From Achatina immaculata (Eukaryota > Mollusca > Gastropoda > Stylommatophora > Achatinidae): a stretch of 64,000 nt of DNA. The DNA lies in NCBI GenBank assembly GCA_009760885.1, contig CM019717.1, forward strand, positions 50,553,366 through 50,617,365, read 5' to 3'. Positions within the stretch are counted from its first letter, which is position 1. Every line of letters begins with the position of its first letter. The translations under genes were made by a program, and so were the position numbers. The notes under the pieces are model-generated. The model was not told the origin of the DNA, did no database searches, and was given only the letters and a program-made list of their open reading frames with translations. This document shows positions 3,246 through 63,506 of this stretch, one piece after another.

Positions 3246-5331
3246 TTACTCAACATAATCCCCATCAACTTGTACGGCTTTATGCCAGAATGAAACAAGT
3301 GCATGTATACCTAGCCCATGCCAAATTTTCTCTTGATTATGTAGCCATTTCTTTGCTGCATGAATCACTCCTTGGTCATCTTCAAATCTTATCCTTTGGA
3401 GTGCATCTTTAATAAGTGGACCAAACAGATGGAAATCAGAGGATGCCAAATCGGGACTATAGGGTGGATGGGGTAGTACAGTCCAACCCAGTTTGGTGAT
3501 TGCTTCCCATGTTGCCAGACTTGTGTGAGGGTGCACATCATCATGAAGGAGAAGCAGATCAGCTGGGACTTGTGCAGCCGAACTCTGTGAAAACGTTGAT
3601 TGAGTTTTTTCAATGTCTTAATGTAAGCTTGCGAATTAACTCTCCTCTAGGCATAACATCCACAAGAATCACACCTTCATTGCCCCAAAAGACAGTGATC
3701 ATGACCTTTCCAGCTGAAGGGGTTGTCTTGAATTTCTTTCCTCTTGGTGACTACGGATGATGCCACTCCATTGACTGTCTTTTTTTTGTCTCAAGTTCAA
3801 AATAATGTGCCCAGGTTTCATCACCTATTACCCTTCTTCTTTGTTCCCTTCTACCACTAAGACCGTCCCATGATCCTACTGAATTTACTCCTGCGGTCCT
3901 CGATAGGTCCCGTGGTCCCCGAAAGGACCACACAAGATCCTTGAGGACCACAATAGGTTCAGAGCATCACAGGACTTGAGCCTGTATTCTCGGTGGGTCT
4001 CAGAAGCGGTAGTTTTTGTTGCACCAGTTTAATCTAGACTTGACTTTCTCACCTGAAAACCTCGATGTGGTTTGGATACCAGTATATCCCCGTTGGGTGA
4101 GAGGTGGTTGCCAATCCAGGCTAGAGTTGGACTTTCTCATCGGAAAACCTCGACGTGTTTTGGGATACCCGTGTATCCCCACTGCTTTAGAGCAGAGGTG
4201 CCGTGAGTAGCTCTCTCCACGAGACTACTGGACATACCGATTAAGCTTCGCTTTATCCTTTCCATCACCTTTTCTCATTGGCGCTGCACGGCAACCCTAA
4301 TTGCTTTTTCGCATTTTCTTCATTGGCCGGGAGGAGTTTCACTCCACACGCGTCATCCAAAGAATCTCGCCAGCTCAGGCAATTCACCCGGTATGAGTGC
4401 ACATAGGATGTGGCCGACCTCCAGAGCAGAGGTGCCATGATTTGAGCAGTCCTGACCTTGAGACTTCTGATTACTTCACTTAATCCTTTCTTTCACCTCT
4501 TCCACAGTGGCGCTGTGCAGCAACCCCATTCACACCTTTCTTCGCTGGCCGAAAGGAGCTCTACTCCACGCACAGCAGCTGAAGAATCTCGCCAGCAGCG
4601 GTAGATGAGCTACCAAACATAACTATCATCTACCCAAAGCGTCTGGTTTTCAGGCACCAGATATTCACCTTCGCCCCTTCTCCTGTCAGTTTTAAACAAT
4701 TCTGCCACTGGACTTGACTGTCAGAGGCTATTTGAGACACACGCCTTGGAGACATTTCATTGGAATGGAGAGTGTATTCCCCACCCCATCTCCGGCTATA
4801 ACAGTCCTTTGAACCGTCACCTGTTACAGTCTTAGCCAAAAAGTTCTCTCCTTCAGCTTTGAAATGCTCCAACAATTCAGAAGAAATTGGTTTACTTTGC
4901 AATCGATGGTCATTTGTGAGACTTCGAGGAACCCATCTTGTGCAAACCTTAGAAAATCCGAGAGCTTTTATAACTGTATTTACACCACCATTGCTGACTG
5001 ACAGCTTTAAGGCCAGTTGTTGAGTAGTGATACGCCTATCAGTAAGAATAATGCCCTCAGCGCATTTCAACATTTCTGCCTTGGTGGCTGTGGCAGGACG
5101 TCCACAGAGCGGCTGATCATGCAACTCCTTATCTCCACTTATTGATTCTTTGATTCTCTGAACCCAGCAACTGACTGTACGTACTGTCAACTGCAAAACT
5201 TCCATACACATCACATGGACGCTTGTGAATGTTCACAACAGTTTCCTTCTCTGCAATGAGAAATTCATCACAATTCGCTGCTTATACTGCAAGTTGCTAA
5301 CACGCTCCATTTCAATGGTTAGGGCAGCCAT
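3246..5331 (-). pseudogene. mariner transposase pseudogene (split)
   Basis: Mariner transposases cut and paste their own element at TA sites using a DD34D catalytic triad. The frame begins at 5331 with residues MAALTIEMERVSNLQYKQRI, soon meets a frameshift, and continues as the DNA-binding half at 5214-4830 (GRPATATKAEML, ITTQQLALKLSVS, VPRSLTNDHR). It is then broken by the insertion at 3832-4815 and resumes as the catalytic C-terminal half at about 3790-3246 (PHTSLATWEAITKLGWTVL, PYSPDLASSDFHLFGPL, GDYVE at the end). Several stops and frameshifts, plus the large insertion, make it non-functional. The copy at 32561-34503 is a close relative. Confidence 0.85.
3832..4815 (-). mobile_element. 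non-coding retroelement with internal subrepeats, copy 1
   Basis: A 984-bp insertion inside the mariner transposase. It is flanked by an imperfect 12-bp target duplication: ATCACCTATTAC at 3820-3831 and GTCACCTGTTAC at 4816-4827 (10 of 12). In its own orientation (minus) it starts GGTTCAAAGGACTGTTATA and ends GGGAACAAAGAAGAAG. It has no ORF of note. It is homologous to 36149-37367 and 58697-60149, but carries fewer internal subrepeats than the 1453-bp copy. The GAA-rich tail and variable target duplication imply retrotransposition; the class is not one I recognise. Confidence 0.75.
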
Positions 5332-10789: not shown

Positions 10790-10871
10790 TTAAGCAAACA
10801 GATCTATGTTCCCTGTCTCACAAACACTATGTTAAGATAAGTGTGTTCATAACACAGTTGTTCCCAGGGGG
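10790..10871 (-). promoter_or_regulatory. LINE 5' UTR monomer (single copy)
   Basis: In LINE sense this starts CCCCCTGGGAACAACTGTG and runs for about 75 bp, ending in CATAGATCTGTTTGC. The derivative at 50021-50318 has four tandem copies of the same unit. Repeated 5' monomers carry promoter activity in some LINEs (mouse L1 is the known example); a promoter role here is inferred. Confidence 0.55.
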
Positions 10872-20745: not shown

Positions 20746-21324
20746 TCAATGATTATTTAAGGCATACTTAATGTACAAAAACAGAACCACAGGCACGATG
20801 ATTGCAACAAGGAGTGATACTATAACTATAGACAACCAACTAATGCCACATGTTGCCCCCCCAAGGTTGCTACTTGGTCTGCTGGTCTGCAGTGGGCTGA
20901 TGCTCTTGTTAGTCAGCACAGATATGACTTCACTCAGTGACTCTCGCTCCAACCTAGGAGACTGTTTAAATTTTTTCAAGTCATCATCCATTCTCTGGAG
21001 AAATTTTTCAGCATCCTTCTCCCGTGAAGAAAAGTTCTCCCTGATACTTAGAGTTCTCAAGACCTTCATCTGAGTGTCGGGGTCACTGAAGTCATGTGAT
21101 GAGTTATTTTCTTCGAAATAATTATTGCACAAGTCTGGATCTGAGTCATTAGATGAAGACGCCCAATTTGCTGGTCTGGAATGTTGCAGAGTCTTGTGAT
21201 CTTTGGCGTTGCTGGTTATCTGTTCTGACAGAATTCCAAACCTTCTCATGGGAATTTTCAGAGTTTTAAGAGCAAAGAATTCTTGGTCTTGAATTAGATT
21301 GTTCAGCCTCTTCAGTTCAGAAAC
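20746..21324 (-). CDS. LYSMD3: LYSMD exon 2 (second half of LysM domain, linker, TM)
   Basis: A TATCAG acceptor precedes GTTTCTGAACTG (residues VSEL), phase 0. The exon has 193 codons including the stop: completion of the LysM domain, a Ser/Asp/Glu-rich linker (FSDPDTQMKVLRTLSIRENF) and the C-terminal transmembrane segment. Confidence 0.93.
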   Translation of the reverse strand, partial: VSELKRLNNLIQDQEFFALKTLKIPMRRFGILSEQITSNAKDHKTLQHSRPANWASSSNDSDPDLCNNYFEENNSSHDFSDPDTQMKVLRTLSIRENFSSREKDAEKFLQRMDDDLKKFKQSPRLERESLSEVISVLTNKSISPLQTSRPSSNLGGATCGISWLSIVIVSLLVAIIVPVVLFLYIKYALNNH

Positions 21325-24300
21325 CTGATAAACAGATAACGTATGAAAATTATGAAAGTTTTTTCTTTCTTTTTATGTGTATAAAATTCCTTTAAAATAA
21401 TACAGCGTATTCAGAAGGACAAGAATGAGAAATATTTCAAGATTCAATATGTAATGAGCATTTCAAATGTTACATAACCCACTCTGTGCCTTTGTAATAG
21501 TTCAGTGATGACTGCTGAGCATACGTAACAAGAGCACTACCTACATAATACTGTCAGGCCTTTGATGTGGCTCACACTGACTTCTCTTCATAAAAAAGTT
21601 TTTTAGTAATGTAACAGCATTTGAGACTACAGTAAAATTCATATCTGAAACTGGATTAACTACCTGAGAAAGAATGCAAATAAATATTGAAAACCAGATT
21701 AAATATGCCAATGTAAGTAATAACATAAAGAAAGAAAAATACATTAACTGACACAGTGATCAGACTTCTTTTTAAAAATTATATAAAGAACATATGAAAT
21801 GACATGACACATGGAATACAGATTTTTACCCATGATTCCAAGTTTCAATGCAAAATAAACTTGGAATCCTGTGTAAAAATTTCCTGATATAAATATGTGT
21901 ATTTTTTTCCATCATAAATGTGAGCTAATGTCACAGTCCTTCCCTCTCAAATACTTATTCTTCAGTGGTACAAATGATGCAACCTGGGGTAAACATCTTT
22001 ACGTAAATAAAATTGGGAAAAAAATGAAAATCAAATAATGATCTTACACTGTTGCCACATCTTAACACAGTTAATAAATATATATTGACAAAATCATAAG
22101 CCAGGTGTAGTGGAGAAAACCATAAACTGAAAAAACATCAATAATCACCCATGCTACATTAATTTTCTAAATGAAATACTTATTAAGAGATGGAATGTTA
22201 GCTGTCCTTTCTCTACAAATTTCCTCAGTTTCTGTTGAAATTTCACAAATAAAACTCATACAGCCACTACAAGTCATCTGCATGGCAAACTGAATAAGAA
22301 TATGAAAGATCTTACAAAAACTATCATTTTTAAGAAAATATTCTGGTAAATGATTGAAGATACACAGAAAATGATGAAAAATAGATTACTGGAATAATTT
22401 ATTAATTAAAAAAAACTAACTCTAGATGTTTTTAGTAGTAATACTAATTTTAATTTATCACAGCTCTGTATGTTTGAAATAAAAGCCAATTTTAATTTGT
22501 TGCAGCTGAGGTCACATCCAAAACACATCATCATCATCATCACCACCTTTCATTCCCTTGGGACCACAGATAAAGGCTCTCCAGTTGCCCCTGTTTATTC
22601 TGATTTCTTCTCTGCTTTCTTTAATGTGTAATCCTTGTCTCTGAGCACTGTCATAATTTCCCTTCTCCGAGCAGTTCTAGATCTTCCTCAGTTTCTACTT
22701 TCCACATCCATAACACACATCCTTCAAAACTGTACCAACTATGAAACAGTGAGATGCAATTCAATGAAACCACCTATAATGCTAAGCTCTATGGTTCTAT
22801 ACTGGAACTACAAAAAATAGCCCAATTTATCTAACAGGTAGACCTGCAGATAAAGACTGTAAATGTGTACAGAGAAGAAGAAAACATCTATAACTAGGAT
22901 AACCAAAAGCTTACTTCTGGTAACCACATTTATATAACGAATTATTTCATTACATTTTATAACAGCAGCCGGAGGACATTATTTTATTACTATTTTGTTC
23001 TTATAAGACATCTCTGCAAGTGTGTGCTTAATGATATAGGCAGCCATCTTCTTCTTCTTTTAGGAATTACTGAATTCAGTAGCTTTCCAAGCCACTGAGA
23101 CTCATTGATGCAGAACTAGACTTGTCTCCATTTCTCTCTGTTCTTGACTTTTTCTTGCCAATTGTTGATTCCAAAAGCATGTGTATCTTCTTCTAGGTTG
23201 TCTCACTACTGTTGTCTTGGTCTATCTCTTGGTCTATCCCCTTTCCTCACTTCTGTATAAGTCACCTCCATCTGTCCTCCCCCATTCTTTCTAAATGCCT
23301 GAGCCACCTCAGTCTGTTACAAACAGCCATCCCATGGTTAAAATTAAGACAGTAGAGTTGGGAATCTCACTTGTACAATCAGATTCAACTGAAATGCATC
23401 ATTTATCAAGGAGGCAAAGTTAGAATTGGAAAGTCAAAAAAATGAATGTTGAATCTAAGGTTTAGCATGCCAAGTTCACAGCCCTAGTTAAAATTTTGGA
23501 AAACAGGCATCAGCTTAACATAAATGTAACTCTCCATGTAAAACAGACACTACAAAAAACAACAGACTGAGGCTGCTCTGGTATTTAGAGAGAATGGAGG
23601 AGGACTGAAAAACAAAGATGGCCTATACAGAAGCTATGAAAGGGGATAGACCAAGAGGTGTACCTAAACTATGATGCTGAGACAACCTAGAAGATACATG
23701 TACTCTTGGAACTGACAACTGCCAAGAAAAAGTCAAAAGAGTAGAATGGAGATGTGTCTCGTCTGCAGCAATGGGCCTCAGTGGCTCAGAAAGCTGCTGG
23801 ATTCAACAGCTACTGATGATGAGAAAAAAAAAAAGGCATCAGTTTTCATTTTTGTAACTGAGTTACAGTGGCTTTCTTTAATTTCTAGTGGAATGGACCT
23901 AAAAAAAAACACTATCCATAAGTGTGGGGAGGGTAGGGATGATATCCCAATCCTTCCTTACTGGCCAGCCACTGGCACTAATATTAGTTAGTGGAAGTGG
24001 TGGTAGGGTCCTGGCTAGTTTTGTTTTGCTAAGAGAGAACCATCAGATCAGTGCCATGCCTACAGGCGTAGGTCATATCTCTCCACCGTGTTCAATCTTC
24101 CGCATCTCAAATCAGTTCAATTTGTTGCTTTCACGCCAAACCTTGCAGTCAGGCCATCTAGGTATGTCTGTCTTCTTCGTCCTCTCTCTTTTGCCAGTTA
24201 CCTTCCAGTCATGACCAATTTTTCAAGTCCTTCATGTCTGCTGATGTGTCCAGGAAACTTTGATTGTCTTTTTATTATGTATGGCACCAGTCTGGGATAT

Positions 24301-25524: not shown

Positions 25525-26964
25525 TAGATAAGGATGAGTGGCTAAATTCACTTCCAAAAGAACGAGAAAGATCTGTACTTCCACACACACACACCCGCGC
25601 GCACGCACACACACAAACACAATGCGACAACTGAAGCTGAGAAATGTAAAATGCTGTTTATGCTTCATAATTAATTAACTGTTAGCAGAATCAAAGATAA
25701 TAAGAAAACAATGGGGAGATCTGGAAATGCAAAAGAACCGGGTTAGCTGCCTCTCTTTGGGGATATGATACAAGATGGCGATGAACCAGCAAACGAGATT
25801 ATGATGATTCAGAGAGAAATGAATCGCTAACTCTATTCCCTGCCCTACACAATGAGTATTTTGGTGTATTTACAGACCACGTCCTGGTGGCTGCAGAGAA
25901 ATCGAAGATTAACTGTTATGAATCGAAGTAAAACAACTGAAATCTTATTTTATGAACGATAATTTGAAATTGTAAAGAAACGCTCTCTTTTGGCATACAA
26001 ACTGGAAGTTGTAATAGCGAAGTAAATGAGAGATCGACACACAGACAAAAGGAAACAGACGGATATCGTGACATTTTATGAGAAAGATTATGGTGGGTGG
26101 ATGGATGGAGGGAGAAGTGGGGCCACCTAGAGCAACTTAAAAGTATTTACCAACATAACATTCCTTAATCTGGAAGTTTTACATGTTTGCGTGTCCTTCA
26201 TGAGCGGTTAAGAGATCAAATGAAGAGGTCATGAAAGCGGAAGAAGAAGAAGAAGAGACAAACAATAACAAAACTCAGGAAGGGACAATCCAAATTCATT
26301 TAAGTCACGAGAGCAGGTGGGTTTGAATATTTGATAACAACAGATATGATAGAGGGCAAAATAGACTGCGGCAAAGAAAGAAAGATTATCATAGATGGAC
26401 TGATGAAGTGTCATGGAGAAGGAACACCTGTCCAGCTCATAATTAACACCTGAAATAGAGAATTATGAGAAATTATGATCCCAAACGCAATTCGGCATGG
26501 CACTGGATACAAGATGATCAGGGGAGGTGAAGCAAACAAAAAAAAAAACGGTGAAATTGAATACACGCTTATCTCCATAAGGTATAACCTCCACGCAAGA
26601 TTCTAAAAATAAACAAGTCGGACAAAATGCTGTCTGTGAACCGATTTGATACTGACACGAAGGTAATATATAAAATATGTATAAATAGACAATATATTTT
26701 AATTACATAATACAGCAGAGGAGATCACATAAATTCCCACAGAATGGAGGCTTCATGACAAATGTACGTAATTACATAATGAAAAATGTGTGATCTTATC
26801 CTTGCTCCATCAATACCATTTTGGCATTCAGTATTCATTAGGGAAGAAACTAACTTTCTCCTTTTCGTTTGTTATTTGTCCGTTCCTTCTGTTTTTATAG
26901 TTCGGTTTAAACTGTTCTTTTGAAAATGTAGCACCAATTCACTGATGCACATCGAAAATTAAAC

Positions 26965-27140
26965 GGAACTATTATAAAGCAGGTGCAATAATTCAAATAC
27001 CTTGAAGCAATAATAATTTCAGGTGGGAAATGCAAAACAGAAATTAAGAACAGAATAGGCCAAGCAAAGACTGCATTTCAGAGAATGAGAAACATATTAT
27101 GCAACACATCCTTATCAATGAATGTTAGAAAACGAGTCCT

Positions 27141-27188
<48 letters not shown>

Positions 27189-27531
27189 CCTGTCTTTTTA
27201 TATGGAAGTGCGAATTCCCTGGACAGCAAAAATAACTAATGAAGAATGTTTGAGAAGTGTTGAAGATAGAAAAAAATAAAAAAATAATAAGAGATAGACA
27301 ATGTACTTTCATATGACATACAATGAGAAGAGGGGGCATTGAAAATATTATAACAATATGAAAAATAGAGGGAAGAAGAGCAAGGGGAAGACCAAGAGAA
27401 ATGATACTGACGGGATGGTGTGAGAGGAGATCACCAACTGAGCTAATAGCCTGCATGAAGGATCGCGTACTCTGGAGAAGCACAATAACCAACGCCAGAC
27501 GGCACCTGATGATGATGATGATGATGATGAT
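26965..27531 (+). mobile_element. RTE-like LINE 3' fragment (copy A)
   Basis: Starts near GCACATCGAAAATTAAACGG and runs through GGCCAAGCAAAGACTGCATT, AACGAGTCCTAAAATTATAT and the (AT)n expansion to ATTCCCTGGACAGCAAAAAT, ending GCACCTGATGATGATGATGA, its (TGA)n tail. The middle (YIEPILLYGSE through AAEMWFI in the intact frame at 33859-34478) is replaced by the AT tract. Its duplicate is at 29990-30556. Confidence 0.75.
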
Positions 27532-28550: not shown

Positions 28551-30739
28551 AATAGATAAGGATGAGTGGCTAAATTCACTTCCAAAAGAACGAGAAAGAT
28601 CTGTACTTCCACACACACACACCCGCGCGCACGCACACACACAAACACAATGCGACAACTGAAGCTGAGAAATGTAAAATGCTGTTTATGCTTCATAATT
28701 AATTAACTGTTAGCAGAATCAAAGATAATAAGAAAACAATGGGGAGATCTGGAAATGCAAAAGAACCGGGTTAGCTGCCTCTCTTTGGGGATATGATACA
28801 AGATGGCGATGAACCAGCAAACGAGATTATGATGATTCAGAGAGAAATGAATCGCTAACTCTATTCCCTGCCCTACACAATGAGTATTTTGGTGTATTTA
28901 CAGACCACGTCCTGGTGGCTGCAGAGAAATCGAAGATTAACTGTTATGAATCGAAGTAAAACAACTGAAATCTTATTTTATGAACGATAATTTGAAATTG
29001 TAAAGAAACGCTCTCTTTTGGCATACAAACTGGAAGTTGTAATAGCGAAGTAAATGAGAGATCGACACACAGACAAAAGGAAACAGACGGATATCGTGAC
29101 ATTTTATGAGAAAGATTATGGTGGGTGGATGGATGGAGGGAGAAGTGGGGCCACCTAGAGCAACTTAAAAGTATTTACCAACATAACATTCCTTAATCTG
29201 GAAGTTTTACATGTTTGCGTGTCCTTCATGAGCGGTTAAGAGATCAAATGAAGAGGTCATGAAAGCGGAAGAAGAAGAAGAAGAGACAAACAATAACAAA
29301 ACTCAGGAAGGGACAATCCAAATTCATTTAAGTCACGAGAGCAGGTGGGTTTGAATATTTGATAACAACAGATATGATAGAGGGCAAAATAGACTGCGGC
29401 AAAGAAAGAAAGATTATCATAGATGGACTGATGAAGTGTCATGGAGAAGGAACACCTGTCCAGCTCATAATTAACACCTGAAATAGAGAATTATGAGAAA
29501 TTATGATCCCAAACGCAATTCGGCATGGCACTGGATACAAGATGATCAGGGGAGGTGAAGCAAACAAAAAAAAAAACGGTGAAATTGAATACACGCTTAT
29601 CTCCATAAGGTATAACCTCCACGCAAGATTCTAAAAATAAACAAGTCGGACAAAATGCTGTCTGTGAACCGATTTGATACTGACACGAAGGTAATATATA
29701 AAATATGTATAAATAGACAATATATTTTAATTACATAATACAGCAGAGGAGATCACATAAATTCCCACAGAATGGAGGCTTCATGACAAATGTACGTAAT
29801 TACATAATGAAAAATGTGTGATCTTATCCTTGCTCCATCAATACCATTTTGGCATTCAGTATTCATTAGGGAAGAAACTAACTTTCTCCTTTTCGTTTGT
29901 TATTTGTCCGTTCCTTCTGTTTTTATAGTTCGGTTTAAACTGTTCTTTTGAAAATGTAGCACCAATTCACTGATGCACATCGAAAATTAAACGGAACTAT
30001 TATAAAGCAGGTGCAATAATTCAAATACCTTGAAGCAATAATAATTTCAGGTGGGAAATGCAAAACAGAAATTAAGAACAGAATAGGCCAAGCAAAGACT
30101 GCATTTCAGAGAATGAGAAACATATTATGCAACACATCCTTATCAATGAATGTTAGAAAACGAGTCCTAAAATTATATATATATTATATATATATATTAT
30201 ATATATATATATATATAGAACCTGTCTTTTTATATGGAAGTGCGAATTCCCTGGACAGCAAAAATAACTAATGAAGAATGTTTGAGAAGTGTTGAAGATA
30301 GAAAAAATAAAAAAATAATAAGAGATAGACAATGTACTTTCATATGACATACAATGAGAAGAGGGGGCATTGAAAATATTATAACAATATGAAAAATAGA
30401 GGGAAGAAGAGCAAGGGGAAGACCAAGAGAAATGATACTGACGGGATGGTGTGAGAGGAGATCACCAACTGAGCTAATAGCCTGCATGAAGGATCGCGTA
30501 CTCTGGAGAAGCACAATAACCAACGCCAGACGGCACTGATGATGATGATGATGATACCGAAAAGCTGTGATAATTTCTAGTTCCATTCCATACTTTGTCG
30601 AACCAAATTTCACCCCCCCCCCCAAAAAAAAAAAAATCACTGTATCATACATTATCTTCCTGTTTACCTGGAGAAATTGCTGGAGGTAATCTATAGTCAA
30701 GAACTATAATTCTGAAGCTTTAATTTTCACGGTGGCGCT

Positions 30740-32662: not shown

Positions 32663-33734
32663 ATTATTCAACATAATCCCAATCGCCAGCGCGAAACATA
32701 TGCATGCATTCCTAGCACGTACCAGATTTTCTCTTGACTATGTAGCCATTTCTTCGCTGCATGAATCACTCCTTCATCATCTTCAAATCTTACCCCTCAG
32801 AGTGCATCTTTAAGTGGACCAAACAGATGGAAATCAGAGTGTGCCAAATCGGGACTATAGGGTGGATGGGGTAGTACAGTCCAACCCAATTTGGTGATTG
32901 CTTCCCGTGTTGCCAGACTTGTGTGAGGGCGCGCATTGTCGTGAAGGAGAAGCAGATCTGGTGGATTCTTGTGCGGCCGAACTCCGCGAAAACGTTGATT
33001 GAGTTTTTTCAATGTCTTAATGTAAGCTTGCGAATTGATTAACTCTCCTCTTGGCATAACATACACAAGAATCGCACCTTCAGTGTCCCAAAAGACAGTG
33101 ATCATGGCCTTTCCAGCTGAAAAAGTTGTCTTGAATTTCTTTCTTCCTGGTGATTGCGGATGATGCCACTTCATTGACTGTCTTTTTGTCTCAGGTTCAA
33201 AATGATGTGCCCAGGTTTCGTCACCTGTTAAGATCTTAGCCAAAAAGTTCTCTCCCTCACCATTGAAATGCTCCAACAATTCAGAAGAAGTTGCTTTCCT
33301 TTGCAATCGATAGTCATTTGTGAGACTTCGAGGAACCCGTCTTGCGCAAACCTTAGAAAATCCGAGAGCTTTTATAACTGTATTTACACTACCATTGCTG
33401 ACTGACAGCTTTAAGGCCAATTGTTGAGTAGTGATACGCCTATCAGTAAGAATAATGCCGTCAGCGCTTTTCAACATTTCTGCCTTGGTAACTGTGGCAG
33501 GACGTCCACAACGCGGCCGATCATGCAACTCCTTATTTCTACTTGATGATTCTTTGATTCTCTGAACCAAGTGACTGACTGTATTCCTGTCAACTGCAAA
33601 ACTTCCATACACATCACATAGACGCTTGTGAATGTTCACAACAGTTTCCTTCTCTGCAACGAGAAATTCATCGCAATTCGCTGCTTATACCGCAGGTTGC
33701 TAACACGCTCCATTTCAACGGTTAGGGCAGCCAT
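32663..33734 (-). pseudogene. mariner transposase pseudogene, copy 2
   Basis: A 280-residue open segment (33639 to 32797) holds helix-turn-helix sequence (GRPATVTKAEMLKSADGI, ITTQQLALKLSVSN) and the DDE domain: TGDETWAHHF (first D), WHHPQSPGRKKFKTTFSAGK, LLLHDNARPHTS (second D) and PPYSPDLAHSDFHLFGPLK (third D). Thirty-four residues separate the second D and the D of SDFHLF, the DD34D signature of mariner. A frameshift near 33700 separates the initial MAALTVEMERVSNL, a stop follows FGPLKDAL, and the C-terminus is shortened. All three catalytic aspartates survive, but the gene is broken. Confidence 0.9.
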
Positions 33735-33858
33735 ATTCTTTGGTTGGTTGCGGTGCACTTTAGTTCACACAATTGGCACATGCCATATTTAAAGTGTGCA
33801 AAATTGTATGCTTCTATCTTCATTGTTAGCCGAAAAAAAAAGATGTGGTGCATTACTT

Positions 33859-34478
33859 GCAGTATAAAATTAAACGGAACTATTTTAAAGCAGGTGCAGA
33901 AATTCAAATACCTTGGAGTAGTAATAACTTCAGATGGGAAATGCAGAACAGAAATTAGGAACAGAATAGGCCAAGCAAAGACTGCACTTCAGAGAATGAG
34001 AAACATATTATGCAATACATCTTTATCAATGAATGTTAGAAAACGAGTCCTGAAATGCTATATTGAACCTATCCTGTTATATGGAAGTGAATCATGGACA
34101 ATAGGCAGGTCTGCACAAAAATCATTGGAAGCAGCAGAAATGTGGTTTATTAAAAGAATGTTGCGAATTCCCTGGACAGCAAAAATAACTAATGAAGAAT
34201 GTATGAGAAGAGCTGGAGAGACAAACAAATCTTGTCAAAAAGATAAGAGAGAGACAATATACTTTCATAGGACATCCAATAAGAAGAGGAGGCATAGAAA
34301 ATATTATAAAGTAGAGGGAACTAGGTCCAGAGGAAGATCAAGAGAAATGATACTGGGCAGTCTGACGGGATGGTGTGAGAGGAGATCACCAACTGAGCTG
34401 ATGGCCTGCATGAAGGATCATGTACTCTGGAGAAGCATAATACCCAACGCCCGTCGACACGGCACCTGATGATGATGA
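33859..34478 (+). mobile_element. 5'-truncated RTE-like LINE nested in mariner
   Basis: Inserted in the mariner end with a 10-bp target duplication (TGCATTACTT at 33849-33858; TGCATCACTT at 34479-34488, 9 of 10). The open frame (to 34469) covers the LINE C-terminus: FKYLGVVITSDGKCRTEIRN, PILLYGSESWTIGRSAQKSL, EMWFIKRMLRIPWTAKITNE, then a basic tail. It ends with the (GAT)n tail at 34467-34480. The same LINE end occurs at 26965, 29990 and 60150. Confidence 0.85.
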
Positions 34479-36030: not shown

Positions 36031-36148
36031 CTAAATCATGGACCTGATATCTTGGTGACAATCTTTGGTTTGGTTTGAGATACCCGGGAAAAAAATTTTG
36101 TCATAACATATTTTTTTTTAAAAATGAAGCTTATATTATCACTATTGT

Positions 36149-37367
36149 CCGCTGCTGGCGAGATTATTCAGCTGCCGTGCGTGGAGTGGGGCTCCTCCCG
36201 GCCAGTGAAGAAAAGTGCGAATGGGGTTGCCGCGCGGCGCCACTGTGGAAGAGGTGAAAGAAAGTATTAGGTGAAATAATCAGTAGCCTCTGGGTCAAGA
36301 CTGATCAAATCACGACACCTCTGCTCTGGAGGTCGGCCACGTCCTATGTGCACTTATAGCGGGCGAAATGCCTGAACCGGCTTAACCTAGGGGTTAAGAC
36401 ACTGCTGGCGAGATTCTTCGGATGCAGCACGTGGAGTGAAACTCCTCCCGGCCAATGAAGAAAATGCGAAAAAGCAATTAGGGTTGCCGTGCAGCGCCGG
36501 TGTGAAAAGGTGATGGAAAGAATAAAGCGAAGCTTAATCGGTATGTCCGGTAGTCTCGTGGAGAGAGCTACTCATACCACGGCACCTCTGCTCTAGAGGC
36601 CGGCCACGTCCGGTATACATCTATACTGGTGAAATATGTCTAAACCGGCTTACACCAGGGGTGAAACTTGATGGTTACTCATGTCACGGTACCTCCGCTC
36701 TAGGGGTCGGTCACGTCCTAAACACGGCCATAATATAATACGCCTAAACCGGCTCAACCCAGGGGTGAAACTTAATAGTGTCGAGGATTCACTCTCCTGG
36801 ACTTCGTACTGGTCACAACTAGGAAGGGTAGCGGCCACGACCACAAAATGCTGAAGTCGGAGACACTGGACCAGTGCAGTCTAGATAGGCAACCACCTCT
36901 CATCCGGCAGGGATGTATGCGTATCCTAATTAAGCTGAGGTTTTCCGGTAATAAAATTACGCTGGACTGGATAGGCACCTCTCATCCGGCGGTGATACAC
37001 GGGTATCTCAAAACACGTCGAAGTTTTCCGGTGAGAAAGTCCAACTCTAGACTGGATGGGCTACCACCTCTCACCCGGCGGGGCCTGATATCCAAACTAC
37101 GCCGAGGTTTTCCGGTGAGAAAATCCAACTCTAGATTAAACTGGTGCAACGAAAACCACGGTGTCACGCAATCCCGCTTCTGAGACCCACCAAGAATTCA
37201 AGCCCAAGCCCCGCAATACTCTGAACCTCTTGTGATCAAGAGGATCTCTTGTGGGCCTCTCCGGGACAACAGGGGGACCACGGGACACATCGAGGACCAC
37301 GGGAGTAAATTCAACAGGATCAGGGGGCGATCTTGATCTAGAAGCAATCAAAGGAGAAGAAGAAGAG
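36149..37367 (+). mobile_element. non-coding retroelement with internal subrepeats, copy 2 (5'-truncated)
   Basis: Flanked by an exact 10-bp target duplication, TCACTATTGT, at 36139-36148 and 37368-37377. Relative to the full copy at 58697-60149 it lacks about the first 215 bases, i.e. it is 5'-truncated, and ends AAGGAGAAGAAGAAGAG. Truncation plus target duplication plus a simple-repeat tail show insertion by target-primed reverse transcription. No ORF above about 110 codons. It contains two long subrepeats (GCTGGCGAGATT...) and three to four ~88-bp subrepeats (GTCCAACTCTAGACTGGATG...). Confidence 0.85.
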
Positions 37368-37479
37368 TCACTATTGTAACTAATTAAATAACTTTTTTGA
37401 GCGCATTTTGTGATGACGTCATTTACTTCATTTTTCAATTTTTTTTTTCACAGAAAGTGTAGTGAGACTTTTAAAAACA

Positions 37480-50012: not shown

Positions 50013-50856
50013 GGCCCCCTGGGTACAGCTGTGTTAAGAACACACTTATCTTAACATAGTCTTTGTGAGACAGGGAACATAGATCTGTTTGCCCTGGGTA
50101 CAACTGTTTTAAGAACACACTTATTTTAACATAGTCTTTGTGAGACAGGGAACATAGATCTGTTTGCCCTGGGTACAACTGTGTTAAGAATACACTTATC
50201 TTAACATAGTCTTTGTGAGACAGAGAACATAGATCTGTTTGCCCTGGTTACAACTGTGTTAAGAACACACTTATCTTAACATAGTCTTTGTGAGACGGAA
50301 CATAGATCTGTTTGCTTAAAAATGCTGACCGACTTCTGTAGCTGAGAAACCTGTAGCAATCAACACTAATTGTTTTTTATGTCAAAATGTTATGTCAGGT
50401 TGGTGGATGGATGGGGACATGGAGATCTCCGGCAGGGATGAGGGAAATCTGGCGTGAAACCAATGAATCCAGGACGTGACAAGCCTATGGGTCTTTACAA
50501 CAGTGGATATCAGAATGATGTAAACAAAACAGAGCCAGCAGGTGGCTGAGAATGGATATTGTTGAGGCGATCATCGGATTCCTCATCCTCATCTCTGTGG
50601 AACTGTCTCAAAGCCAATCTGGTCAGCCAGAAACTGGGTCTGACGTGGAGAAGGGGCTTAAGTACAGCCACCAGAGGCTGGAAAACAAAGTTTTGGCAAG
50701 CCCGGCCTGCACCACTGTCTTCATGGCAGTCCGGGCAAGACCACAGTCTGCCCTAGCAAGGGAAGGTGCTGAAGTTGGTGGTACCCAGCCAAAAGGTGCG
50801 TCGCAAAAATCAAGGTACACCCCATCATCGCCAGTGTGCGTACGAAGGAAGAAGGC
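50013..50856 (+). mobile_element. internally deleted, non-autonomous I-like LINE derivative
   Basis: 844 bp with an exact 8-bp target duplication, AATGGGAA, at 50005-50012 and 50857-50864. From GGCCCCCTGGG at its start to about 50836 it matches the 5' UTR and ORF1-like region of the LINE at 6385-10871 (CCAGGACGTGACAAGCCTAT, CTGCCCTAGCAAGGAAAGGT-type segments). It then jumps to a short end, CAGTGTGCGTACGAAGGAAG, which resembles the LINE's last bases (CAGTGCGAACGAAGAAGAAG). All of ORF2 is missing. Flanking duplications show the deleted form itself retrotransposed, so it must have used proteins from full-length copies. Confidence 0.85.
50021..50318 (+). repeat. 75-bp 5' UTR monomer array (four copies)
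   Basis: Units start at 50021, 50096, 50171 and 50246, each like GGGTACAACTGTGTTAAGAA followed by CACACTTATCTTAACATAGT. Spacing is exactly 75 bp. The full-length LINE at 10790-10871 has a single unit. Copy-number change in a 5' monomer resembles promoter arrays of rodent L1. Confidence 0.92.
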
Positions 50857-57430: not shown

Positions 57431-58696
57431 ACTTTTTTCCGGTGAATCCTGGGGGCATTTCTTCTTTTTAGACTCTGTAGCGATAGTATGACGGTTGACA
57501 GGGTTGCTAGCCCGGACAGCCCAGTTCAAAGACGCTTTCCCAGTGAGGATTCTGGTCTTTCCCAGTGTCCATTGGTCTTTCCCGATATGCTTTGTGTATA
57601 GCTGTATGCCTATACACTGATTATTGTGACATCTCACTAAAGTGCTTTGTCTTTGATTTTTTTCGAGGTCTAATCCTGCAAAACTGTGTTCTCTTACTTT
57701 ACCGTACGAAGGCCTCGTTGTTTCTTATATATAATATGATATATAACATTTATCACATGTTTAACAGACTCAAGGTAGGCAGAAGGTAGGCACTTGTGGT
57801 ATGGACAAAATGGCTGTCACGTGTAAGAGTCCATGGCAATCTTAGCAGCCTAAGACAAACAGTAGCATTCTTCAAAGCTATCCAAGTTGATGTCTGAAAA
57901 TGTTCATTAAAGAAGATAGTGATATTATATTGTGGTACAGAATCTATGTGAGACTGCATGGACAGGTTTAGGGAATATTTTATTTTTACAGGATCAGCAT
58001 TGTCTATGCAGGAGAGATGTAATAATTTCATAGAGATGTGCCACTGATCACAGACAAGATAATTTCATTTTCTAAATATCAATTCACATTATTAGACAAA
58101 ACCACTAGTTAAACCATATGGTAAGAACATCGACATCAACTTTGTGCAGCCTACACCCTAAAGACAGCTCATAAAATGAAATTAAAGAATGCTATGAAAG
58201 CGTAATAAATTATTTTTAAAAATGCAGATTACCAGAAACAGTTGTCATAATGGGAAATTTCGATGCCAAAGTTGGAAATATGCCAGAAGAACATAGTGGG
58301 AAATATTGGACTTGAAAAGCATAATTATTGGAGACAAACTTATTGTAAGGGCAAAAAGTGATGATTGTTCCCACAAACATTTGAAAACACAAAATATTCT
58401 TGAAAGGGTCCAGGAAATTCTCTCTTTGCCCATTCTAGACGCTGCATCTTGAACCATCCACTGCTGCCTTGGAATAATGGTATGTGATACACTTTAAAGT
58501 CGCTAAAGGAAGTGAACAGAACCTTAAACATAAAAAAGACAGAGACTGTGGTTATATATAAGAAACAGAATCCACCAACATGCAGCATAAAATTAAACGG
58601 GACAATTCTAAAGAGATGCAGAAATTCAAATAGCTTGGAGCAGTAATAACTTCAGATGGGAAATGCCAAGCAAAGACTGCATTTCAGATAATGAGA

Positions 58697-60149
58697 GGTT
58701 CTAACGACTGTTATAAGCCTGAGGTGGGGTGGAGGATACGCTCTCTACTCCAGTGAAATGTCTCTCAGGCGTACGTCTCAAATAGCCTCTGACAGTCAAG
58801 TCCAGCTCGTGGCAGAACTGTTCAAGCCGACAAGAGAAAGGCGAATATCTGGGGCCTAAAAGCAGACGTTTCGGGTAGATGAGAGTCATGTTTGGTAGCT
58901 CATCGACCGCTGCTGGCGAGATTCTTCAGCTGCCGTGCATGGAGTGGGGCTCCTCCCGGCCAGCGAAGAAAGGTGCGAATGGGGTTGCCGTTGCACTGTG
59001 GAAAAGGTAAAAGAAAGGAGTAAGTGAAGAAATCAGTAGTCTCGAGGTCAGGACTGCACAAGTCACGGCACCTCTGCTCTGGAGGTCGGCCACATCTCAT
59101 GTGCACTCATACCGAGCGAGTTGCCTGAACCGGCTTAACCTAGGGGTTAAGACACTGCTGGCGAGATTCTTTGGATGCCACGCGTGGAGTGAAACTCCTC
59201 CCGGCCAAGGAAGAAAATGCAAAAAAGCAAGTAGGGTTGCTGTGTGGCGTCGGTGTGAAAAGGTGATGGAAAGGATAAAGTAAAGCTTAATCGGTATGTA
59301 CAGTAGTATCGTGACGAGAGCTACTCAGACCACGGCACCTCTACTCTAGAGGCCGGCCACGTCTGAAATACACCCATACAGGTGAAATATGCATAAACCG
59401 GCTTACACCAGGGGTGAAACTTGGTGGCTACGCATGTTACAGTACCTCCGCTCTAGAGGTCGGTCACGTCCTAAACACGCCTATACTGGAATAATATGCC
59501 TAAACCGGCTCAACCCAGGGGTGGAAGTCACTAGTGGCGAGGAGTCGTCCTCCTGGACAAAAACTCCCTCCTGGTCACAACTAGGAAGGGTAGCGGCCAC
59601 GACCATAAAATGCTGAAGTCGGAGACACTGGACCAGTGCAGTCTAGATAGGCAACCACCCAGCGGGGATGTATGCGTATCCTAATCACGCTGGGGCTTTC
59701 CGGTGAGAAAGTCCAAATCTGGACTGGATGGGCAACCACCTCTCACCCGGCGGTGATACACGGGTATCTCAAAACACGTCGAGGTTTTCCTGTGTGAAAG
59801 TCCAACTCTAGCCTGGATGGACTACCACCTCTCACCCAGCTGGGATATACTGATATCCAAAACATGTCGAGGTTTTCTGGTGAGAAAATCCAACTCTAGA
59901 TTAAACTGGTGCAACGAAAACAACGGTGTCACGCAATCCCGCTTCTGAGACCCACCAAGAATACAGGCTCAAGCCCTGCGAGACTCTGAACCTCTTGTGG
60001 TTCTCTCGAGGGACCACACGAGATCCTCGAGAGGACCACAAGAGGTTCAGAGTTACTTTCAGGGACCACAGGACCTATCGAGGACCACAGGCGTAAATTC
60101 AGTAGGATCACAGGGCGGTCTTGGTGGTAAAAGGAACGAAGAAGAAGAG
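58697..60149 (+). mobile_element. non-coding retroelement with internal subrepeats, copy 3 (full length)
   Basis: A 1453-bp insertion within an RTE-like LINE; AATGAGA (58690-58696 and 60150-60156) is duplicated. It begins GGTTCTAACGACTGTTATAA, the same start as copy 1, so this is the likely true 5' end. Layout: unique 5' ~215 bp; A units of about 245 bp starting GCTGGCGAGATTCTT at 58912 and 59157, plus a partial third to about 59525; B units of 88-89 bp starting GTCCAA at 59711 and 59800 and ATCCAA at 59888; a hairpin at 59984-60052; tail AAGGAACGAAGAAGAAG. No meaningful ORF. Confidence 0.85.
59984..60052. repeat. 28-bp hairpin within the non-coding retroelement
   Basis: Arms 59984-60011 and 60025-60052 (CTCTGAACCTCTTGTGG on the left, CCACAAGAGGTTCAGAG on the right) pair at 27 of 28 positions around a 13-base loop. 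Lies about 100 bases before the 3' end. Less perfect in the other copies. Confidence 0.85.
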
Positions 60150-60934
60150 AATGAGAAACATATTATGCAACACATCCTTATCAATGAATGTTAGAAAACG
60201 AGTCCTAAAATGCTATATTGAACATATCTTGTTATATGGAAGTGATTCATGGACAGTAGGCAGGTCTGCACAAAAATCATTGGAAGCAGCAGAAATGTGG
60301 TTTATTAGAAGAATGTTGCGAATCCCCTGGACAGCAAAAATAACTAATGAAGAATGTATGAGAAGAGCTGGAGAGACAAAAAATCTTGTAAAAAAAAAAT
60401 AAGAGAGAGACAATGTACTTTCATAGGACATGCAATGAGAAGAGGGGGCATTGAAAATATTATAACAAGAAGAAGAATAGAAGGAAGAAGATCAAGAGGA
60501 AGACCAAGAGAAATGAATGATACTGGATAGTCTGATGGGATGGTGTGAGAGGAGATCACCAACTGAGCTGATGGCCTGCATGAAGGATCATATACTCTGG
60601 AGAAGCATAACAGCCAACGCCAGTCAGCACAGCACCTGATGATGATGATGAGTACACTTTTTGTTGTGATGAATTCTGCAGAGCAGATATGGCTGAGTGA
60701 GGCAGATATGAATCTCACTCCCATGTGAGTACTGATGTTCCCCTGAGTGATCTGGCACATGTCAAAGCAATTCTTTACCCTTCAGAAGATATAAGTCAGT
60801 AGTGAACTGTCCTCATCTCTGTGGATTGCCTTTGGTGCCAGAATTAACACAGGGACTTTTCAGATGAAACATCTTGTGCAAATGTAGCCCAGCACTGTTG
60901 TTTTGACTTGGTTGCCAGTTGTTTGAATGTGTAT

Positions 60935-63115: not shown

Positions 63116-63143
63116 ATAAGTATACAACTATACACTAAACGAA

Positions 63144-63506
63144 ATGAAAACAATCACCTTTCCCAAAACTATCCTCACTCTTCATGAGGGATTCACATGC
63201 GAGTCCCGTAATGTGATATATGTCATCTTGTGCAAAAGATGCAGGATAACATATATCGGTGAGACTGGCCTCAGATTAGGGGACCGCATGCAAAAACATC
63301 TGTACGACATCACCCAGCATGCTTCGAAACCAGTCCCAAATCATTTCAATGGCCCCAACCACAGAGGCAAATCTGATTTTCTGGTAACAGCCATTAAACA
63401 ATGTCACGCAGATGACACAAGCCGCCTGGCACTTGAGAACCGCTGCATTCAAAATTATGGGACGCTGGAACCACATGGGTTAAACTCGCTGTTTAGTTAC
63501 ACGTAA
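63144..63506 (+). CDS. Penelope GIY-YIG endonuclease domain (open fragment)
   Basis: 120 residues open to a TAA. The order FTCESRNVIYVILCKRC (zinc-binding Cys pairs around the GIY equivalent VIY), TYIGETGLRLGDRMQKHL (YIG plus the conserved Arg), NHFNGPNHRGKSDFLVTAIK and LALENRCIQNYGTLEPHGLN (catalytic Glu and Asn) shows an intact C-terminal GIY-YIG nuclease that nicks target DNA in active elements. The RT half is missing upstream, so this is a fragment rather than a gene. Confidence 0.88.
   Translation: MKTITFPKTILTLHEGFTCESRNVIYVILCKRCRITYIGETGLRLGDRMQKHLYDITQHASKPVPNHFNGPNHRGKSDFLVTAIKQCHADDTSRLALENRCIQNYGTLEPHGLNSLFSYT

Follow-up and report, generated by a model that had tools for sequence, protein, structure and literature searches.

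Three copies of a long repeat in one window

The 64,000-nt stretch of the Achatina immaculata genome analysed here (hereafter the window) contains three copies of a long repeat that ends in GAA triplets, and raises the question of what kind of mobile element they represent and which machinery moves it. Copy A (58697-60149, + strand, 1453 bp) is a full-length form with a 5′ head module and diverges by 6.9% from a 40-sequence consensus (see below). Copy B (36149-37367, + strand) is a headless form whose alignment starts at consensus position 229, and copy C (3832-4815, − strand) has the full 5′ end and, compared with A, lacks two internal stretches of 28 and about 396 bp. A sequence-only reading had placed the three copies at these positions, and we found that they can be aligned with one another over most of their length.

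Each copy is bordered by a target-site duplication, and re-reading the sequence gave the same matches as that reading had reported: 7/7 for A (AATGAGA at 58690-58696 and 60150-60156, + strand), 10/10 for B (TCACTATTGT at 36139-36148 and 37368-37377, + strand) and 10/12 for C (GTAACAGGTGAC/GTAATAGGTGAT, 5′ copy at 4816-4827 and 3′ copy at 3820-3831, − strand). A and C also proved to have a common 5′ start, as described, and GAA repeats end all three copies; the tail of A (60133-60149, + strand) reads GGAAC(GAA)n where the consensus has GCGAAC(GAA)n. B had been considered a 5′-truncated copy. It is indeed shorter at its 5′ end, but it does not look randomly truncated: its start coincides with a second 5′ end that recurs among copies.

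The head module of A (58697-58906, + strand, consensus 1-228) ends in a hairpin whose 3′ foot is this second 5′ end. Alignment placed two subrepeats of ~245 bp downstream (58907-59418, + strand, comprising about 58907-59154 and 59155-59418), followed by an extra partial subrepeat of ~107 bp (59427-59541, + strand, consensus about 774-868) and by 2.8 copies of an ~88-bp subrepeat (59656-59900, + strand), for which TRF returned a period of 89. The 245-bp and 88-bp subrepeats of the earlier description are thus real, and the 107-bp unit is additional. The 3′ hairpin region (59983-60053, + strand) contains a near-perfect palindrome. This palindrome is longer than the 3′ hairpin of the consensus and may result from a templated inversion during reverse transcription.

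A large genomic family with a sharp 5′ end

Using A as the query, we searched the 1.65-Gb assembly (145 contigs) and obtained at least 40 scored places, most of which cover query positions 1-1452, at 83-87% identity (A itself excepted). The 39 other places were fetched with 300-bp flanks; as they had been ranked by score, this sample is biased towards full-length copies. The match started at query position 1 or 2, with GGTTC within 1 nt, in 37 of the 39. The exceptions were L035, which aligns from position 36 and is closely preceded by a remnant of the start, and L046, which aligns from position 142 and adjoins a run of Ns. This search, which the sequence-only reading had called for, showed that the same ends, tail and duplications recur elsewhere in the genome and allowed us to build a consensus. 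Three extra copies or fragments (in L007, L048 and L078) were found by chance in roughly 84 kb of flanking sequence, which is not an unbiased sample, and this by-catch points only to the order of the copy number, 10^4-10^5; the first-look candidates from three queries (16104, 15536 and 11168) are not copies.

The consensus was derived from 40 sequences, namely A, B, C and 37 of the loci L009-L047 (L042 and L047 were left out). It is 1452 bp long, has a sharp 5′ end (GGTTCTAAGGACTG) and consists, in this order, of the head (1-228) with its 10-bp hairpin, two ~245-bp subrepeats, the 107-bp unit, three 88-bp units, a 3′ hairpin of ~90 nt and GCGAAC(GAA)n. Its GC content is 54%, compared to ~39% for the window, and its CpG observed/expected ratio is 0.82, compared to 0.42. 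Copies of the A, B and C subfamilies lie 4.8-8.3% from the consensus, and linked diagnostic sites are found among these older copies. The decay of CpG is bimodal in the 40 aligned sequences, with 20-32% of the CpG positions changed in 14 of them and 5-17% in the other 26; both classes occur in both variant groups, and the pattern may be a record of patchy germline methylation by location.

The 3′ hairpin segment (consensus 1310-1425) is predicted to fold at about −58 kcal/mol, with z-scores of −5.9 in the sense and −7.3 in the antisense orientation against dinucleotide shuffles. The predicted energy is about −57 to −59 kcal/mol in both subfamily consensuses (segments of 117-127 nt) and −18 to −49 kcal/mol in decayed genomic copies. 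The other consensus segments are mostly within about two standard deviations of their shuffles (one at −2.3), and the whole consensus reached a z-score of −4.0 against 12 shuffles only. We rejected the idea of an RNA that is highly structured throughout, given that 200-nt tiles of A, B and C mostly remain within |z| 2.5. Covariation gave no support for a conserved fold of the 245-bp unit, in which 1 of 38 pairs displayed a two-sided change, with an unfavourable covariation term.

Target duplications and empty sites indicate retroposition

To identify empty sites, we joined the flanks of each copy minus one duplication and aligned them to the rest of the 64-kb window. The joined flanks of A aligned to a paralogous repeat at 33855-34294 (+ strand) and, with the same junction, to two more at 26955-27338 and 29983-30369; those of C aligned to a paralogous repeat at 32931-33517 (− strand). 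The repeat hosting A is RTE-like by our own reading of its frames (no Pfam match there), and the one hosting C is mariner-like according to its frames and to a Pfam Transposase_1 match in a paralogue. As both alignments run across the junction, A and C are true insertions with clean empty sites. No empty site for B was found in the window, where its flanks have no second copy.

We then searched for target duplications in 37 genome copies; L042 and L047, whose 3′ ends could not be located, were left out. A duplication score of at least 6 was reached by 31 of the 37 copies, compared to 1.7 on average and 3 at most when the flanks were swapped between copies in ten rounds of permutation, and a score of at least 8 by 28 copies, compared to a permuted mean of 0.1. 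Among these 28, the duplication is 11 or 12 bp long in 20, the base preceding it is a pyrimidine (T/C) in 21 and its first base is a purine (A/G) in 24. No convincing duplication was detected in 6 of the 37 copies. The sequence-only reading had proposed target-primed retroposition, to be abandoned if other copies lacked target duplications or the GAA tail; both are present in the genome copies and, together with the empty sites of A and C, they uphold that proposal. The element thus exhibits general traits of non-LTR retrotransposition, i.e. target duplications of variable sequence, a simple-repeat 3′ tail of variable length and no coding capacity.

The element is non-coding and is unlikely to be a SINE

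The absence of an open reading frame was confirmed in several ways. Differences are spread evenly over the three codon phases (57/52/49 of 158 between A and B; 47/40/40 of 127 between A and C), no stretch of the consensus longer than 123 codons is free of stops, and the longest frame of B has no Pfam match.

With a consensus of 1452 bp, the element is, as had been remarked, far longer than a usual SINE; SINEs are usually under ~600 bp. A SINE with a Pol III head was rejected: ARAGORN found no tRNA, Rfam returned no match at gathering scores for the window, nor any at E≤1 for four loci, and a box B motif was absent from the consensus at up to 2 mismatches, with two sites appearing at 3. Nine weak box-A-like sites occur in the consensus at 2 mismatches, and a single box-B-like site at 2 mismatches was found in copy C alone. 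TTTT runs at consensus positions 1030, 1119 and 1207, together with the length of the element, argue against transcription by RNA polymerase III. Seven sub-threshold Rfam matches (E 0.003-4.8), six of which correspond to miRNA families on the palindrome of A, are far below gathering scores and were discarded. Exact patterns of 24-28 nt had no match in collections of viral and other genome contigs, as expected for an animal repeat.

A young subfamily and a second 5′ end

A second, young subfamily, referred to as S, was recovered by using an S copy as the query, which yielded at least 40 scored places, 39 of them besides itself at 95-96% identity. Twelve fetched copies and the query differ by 1.1-2.3% from the S consensus and have GAA tails. 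S ends in GCGAAC(GAA)n, with one base changed in some copies, has a body of 1328 bp preceded by a 173-nt head when present, and is distinguished by its own head deletion and repeat number. The copy used as the query (L048:8093-9412, near L029) begins at consensus position 230 and has an extra 107-bp unit. With a 331-nt query made of 127 nt of upstream flank, the head and the start of the body, all 39 non-self matches listed started at query positions 112-130, at 96-100% identity, and 38 of the 39 starts were within 3 nt of GGTTC.

The head was present in 22 of the 40 S places listed, reaching to within a few bases of GGTTC, and absent from the other 18. In all 18 headless copies homology starts within 2 nt of CGCTG, at about position 228-231, which is the 3′ foot of the head hairpin. 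The older copies that we examined, the best 25 of 40 places (20 newly fetched, four already obtained, and B; places 26-40 were left unclassified for the head), comprised 5 that are headless at the same site, 1 that starts at position 99 and 19 that start at positions 1-4. Altogether, 23 of 65 copies are headless, each with a start no more than 2 nt from a single site; just one of the 65 starts at another point in the head. Body truncations are not included in these counts, since the queries ranked matches with a complete body start; truncations within the head would be visible. Target duplications directly abut five of the six fetched headless copies for which both flanks were available (L085-L089; not L079), and B likewise.

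The head hairpin is predicted to comprise 10-11 bp (GGTAGATGAG...CTCATCTACC, the latter mostly CTCATCTGCC with a G-U pair in S), with energies of −14.9 and −17.5 kcal/mol. Headed and headless S copies are intermixed: the difference between the between-group and within-group distances was −0.0002 (P = 0.63) in a small sample of 13 copies, and L048b, L079 and L080 share four variants yet include both forms. This suggests a repeated origin of the second 5′ end. For the same reason we set aside a separate headless master copy, with the low power that 13 copies afford.

A GAA-tailed LINE is the likely driver

A full-length copy of a LINE with a (GAA)9 tail lies at 10871-6386 (− strand), flanked on both sides by ACTTTCTGTTT. 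Its frames are broken, and Pfam analyses identified an APE-type endonuclease (Exo_endo_phos, PF03372/PF14529), a reverse transcriptase (RVT_1, PF00078) and an RNase H (PF00075), a combination that assigns it to the I superfamily. According to a bivalve-centred study, Nimb and Ingi are the sole I-superfamily clades of molluscs besides an unknown one (PMC10294476).

All 40 listed matches to the 3′-terminal 375 nt of this LINE (including the window copy) were 99-100% identical, and 28 of 30 fetched loci read TGCGAAC(GAA)5-10 at their 3′ end; older copies at 88-90% identity also exist. Nine of twelve copies that are truncated within the fetched locus have a duplication score of at least 7, and the three others lack a convincing duplication. 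The computed lengths in these nine are 12 (five copies), 10, 13, 15 and 17 bp, with a pyrimidine|purine nick in 8 of 9. In L066 and L069 (computed lengths of 15 and 17 bp), the calculation had picked a match away from the junction, where inspection by eye gave 12 bp and a pyrimidine|purine nick in both. The element and the LINE thus have in common GCGAAC(GAA)n, the duplication length and the pyrimidine|purine nick. Moreover, the tail of S and its divergence of 1.1-2.3% indicate that it was active at nearly the same time as the LINE, S being nearly as young as the LINE copies. For these reasons we regard this LINE as the likely driver of the element, an addition to the sequence-only reading, which had named none.

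Beyond GCGAAC(GAA)n we detected no homology between the 3′ ends of the element and of the LINE (60 nt excluding the tail; P = 0.83, 0.80 and 0.17 against mononucleotide shuffles), and local scores between their 5′ ends, based on one LINE copy, were no better than those of shuffles (P = 0.40 for A and 0.45 for C). A 30-nt alignment between A and the body of the LINE was equalled by 1 of 60 shuffles (P = 0.017) and was treated as chance. This absence of further homology is the main weakness of the proposed pairing. Furthermore, the A, B and C subfamilies are older than the LINE copies found, so that they must have been moved by an earlier generation of this LINE or by another LINE.

The LINE starts with 75-bp tandem monomers, four of them in a second copy at 50017-50315 (+ strand) and one, at about 10797-10871 (− strand), in the copy at 10871-6386; they resemble monomeric LINE promoters. 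At L029/L048, the 3′ end of a copy of this LINE is itself the insertion site of a full-length element.

Proposed mechanism and alternative explanations

We consider it highly probable that the element is a non-autonomous, non-coding non-LTR retrotransposon moved by a GAA-tailed I-superfamily LINE of the same genome. Probably transcribed by RNA polymerase II, its RNA would contain a 3′ hairpin and terminate in GCGAAC(GAA)n, which the LINE protein would recognise and take up. The LINE endonuclease would nick the target at a pyrimidine|purine step, and reverse transcription would begin within the GAA tail. The target duplication would arise from a second cut at a distance of 11-12 bp, the LINE thereby mobilising the element in trans. 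The RNA or cDNA would have two discrete 5′ ends, one at position 1 (GGTTC) and the other at 229/230, where the head hairpin has its foot.

A first alternative is that a longer coding LINE contains the element as its 5′, internal or 3′ portion, the last two of which the sequence-only reading had itself named as a danger. The element is long, rich in GC and CpG and built of subrepeats, much like a LINE 5′ UTR, and the candidate LINE has its own 75-bp 5′ monomers; nevertheless, this explanation is barely credible in view of the sharp GGTTC start of 37 of the 39 fetched matches, the target duplications of 31 of 37 copies, the confinement of all 39 flank-query starts to positions 112-130 and the absence of convincing homology between A and the candidate LINE. 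Another candidate origin, in place of a selfish family, is a host gene for a long non-coding RNA, whose retrocopies (pseudogenes) would also be non-coding and devoid of matches to curated RNA families or tRNAs. We find this very improbable, since the linked diagnostic sites of the older copies and the specific head deletion and repeat number of S indicate lineages that evolved through mobile copies. There is somewhat more room, albeit little, for a driver other than the I-superfamily LINE at 10871-6386: apart from the GAA tail, the two have no more than about 6 nt in common, the window contains other LINE families, and further LINEs of this genome could have a GAA tail as well. The exact GCGAAC before the repeat, the 12-bp mode of the duplications, the identical nick motif and the activity close in time all favour the LINE at 10871-6386.

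Two explanations of the headless form carry about equal weight. One is a discrete 5′ truncation caused by the LINE reverse transcriptase stopping at the head hairpin. This, the simplest explanation, is a serious contender, as the 10-11-bp hairpin at whose 3′ foot headless copies start has predicted energies of −14.9 and −17.5 kcal/mol and most of these copies begin with C, an unusual transcription start; on the other hand, to produce any long copy the same enzyme must get past the 3′ hairpin, whose predicted fold is far stronger (about −57 to −59 kcal/mol for both subfamily consensuses). The other, to which we give not quite an even chance, is a second 5′ end of the RNA itself at 229/230, arising by cleavage or from a second transcription start. 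Such an end would explain the precision of the headless start (within 2 nt in all 18 headless S copies and all 5 older ones, with 1 of 65 copies starting elsewhere in the head) and is consistent with the intermixing of headed and headless copies. Against it, Rfam contains no matching ribozyme, although small or unknown motifs could be missed by such a search. More speculatively, the head may be a separable RNA module: the RNA would be cut or restarted exactly where the hairpin has its foot, and a single source would yield two defined RNAs, both of which are copied. We rather doubt this extended version; if true, a non-coding retroposon would possess a built-in switch of its 5′ end, perhaps through a self-cleaving or host-processed structure outside Rfam.

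Relationship to known retroposons

We found no description of this element in the literature. As a working statement, the family looks new against the literature searched, and belongs to a kind that is already known from SVA, Sadhu and SIDEs. The ape VNTR composites SVA and LAVA are likewise long and non-coding, with a body of variable-number subrepeats, and are moved in trans by a LINE (PMC4432496, PMC7353768). Unlike them, the element resides in a gastropod, ends in GAA instead of poly(A), would pair with an I-superfamily LINE instead of L1 and has no Alu-like part that we could detect (no Rfam match). According to the available part of its description, Sadhu of Arabidopsis resembles the element in being non-coding, about 0.9 kb long and flanked by target duplications of 7-18 bp, in having no RNA-derived head or Pol III boxes, and in its inferred dependence on LINE machinery (PMC2848041). 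It differs in its poly(A) tract and low copy number and, within that same part, in having no subrepeat body described, and its 5′ motif CAATCGTTSC is absent from the 5′ end of the element, GGTTCTAAGGACTG (PMC2848041). By the features tested (tail, Rfam matches and host for SVA/LAVA, 5′ end and tail for Sadhu), the element therefore falls outside both. SIDEs such as Persaeus and Zenon are also non-autonomous LINE partners; they are internally deleted LINEs of about 0.3 kb (PMC6740152), whereas the 5′ end of the element is unrelated to the candidate LINE.

SINEs with LINE-derived 3′ ends similarly combine a non-coding body with a LINE-like terminal sequence and tail and with target duplications, from which the element differs by its length of about 1.3-1.5 kb, the lack of a tRNA or curated RNA-family head and its internal TTTT runs. 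In trypanosomatids, RIME/ingi and NARTc/L1Tc are pairs in which the non-autonomous partner of an ingi-type LINE has a 5′ end in common with that LINE. In contrast, the 5′ end of the element is not common to the candidate LINE.

Few retroposons are known that are long and non-coding, carry subrepeats and have a likely driver (SVA, LAVA, Sadhu), and SVA-like elements tend to be viewed as a peculiarity of primates. The element would be an apparently independent case in a mollusc, with a LINE of a different superfamily as its likely driver and no poly(A) tail. As near-identical copies of both partners are present in one assembled genome, the system would permit direct tests of the features that a non-poly(A) LINE recognises and of how a non-coding RNA acquires two fixed 5′ ends.

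Other features of the window

The named matches of a frame at 20746-21372 (− strand) are LysM-domain (LysMD3-like) proteins, most of them from gastropods; the best of these, from the land snail Candidula unifasciata, is 67% identical. An open frame at 63120-63506 (+ strand) resembles, by its motif, a GIY-YIG endonuclease of a Penelope-like element. Finally, a (GAA)5 stretch with nearby RTE-like remnants occurs at about 26240 and again at about 29268, an offset of 3028 bp that reflects a local duplication.
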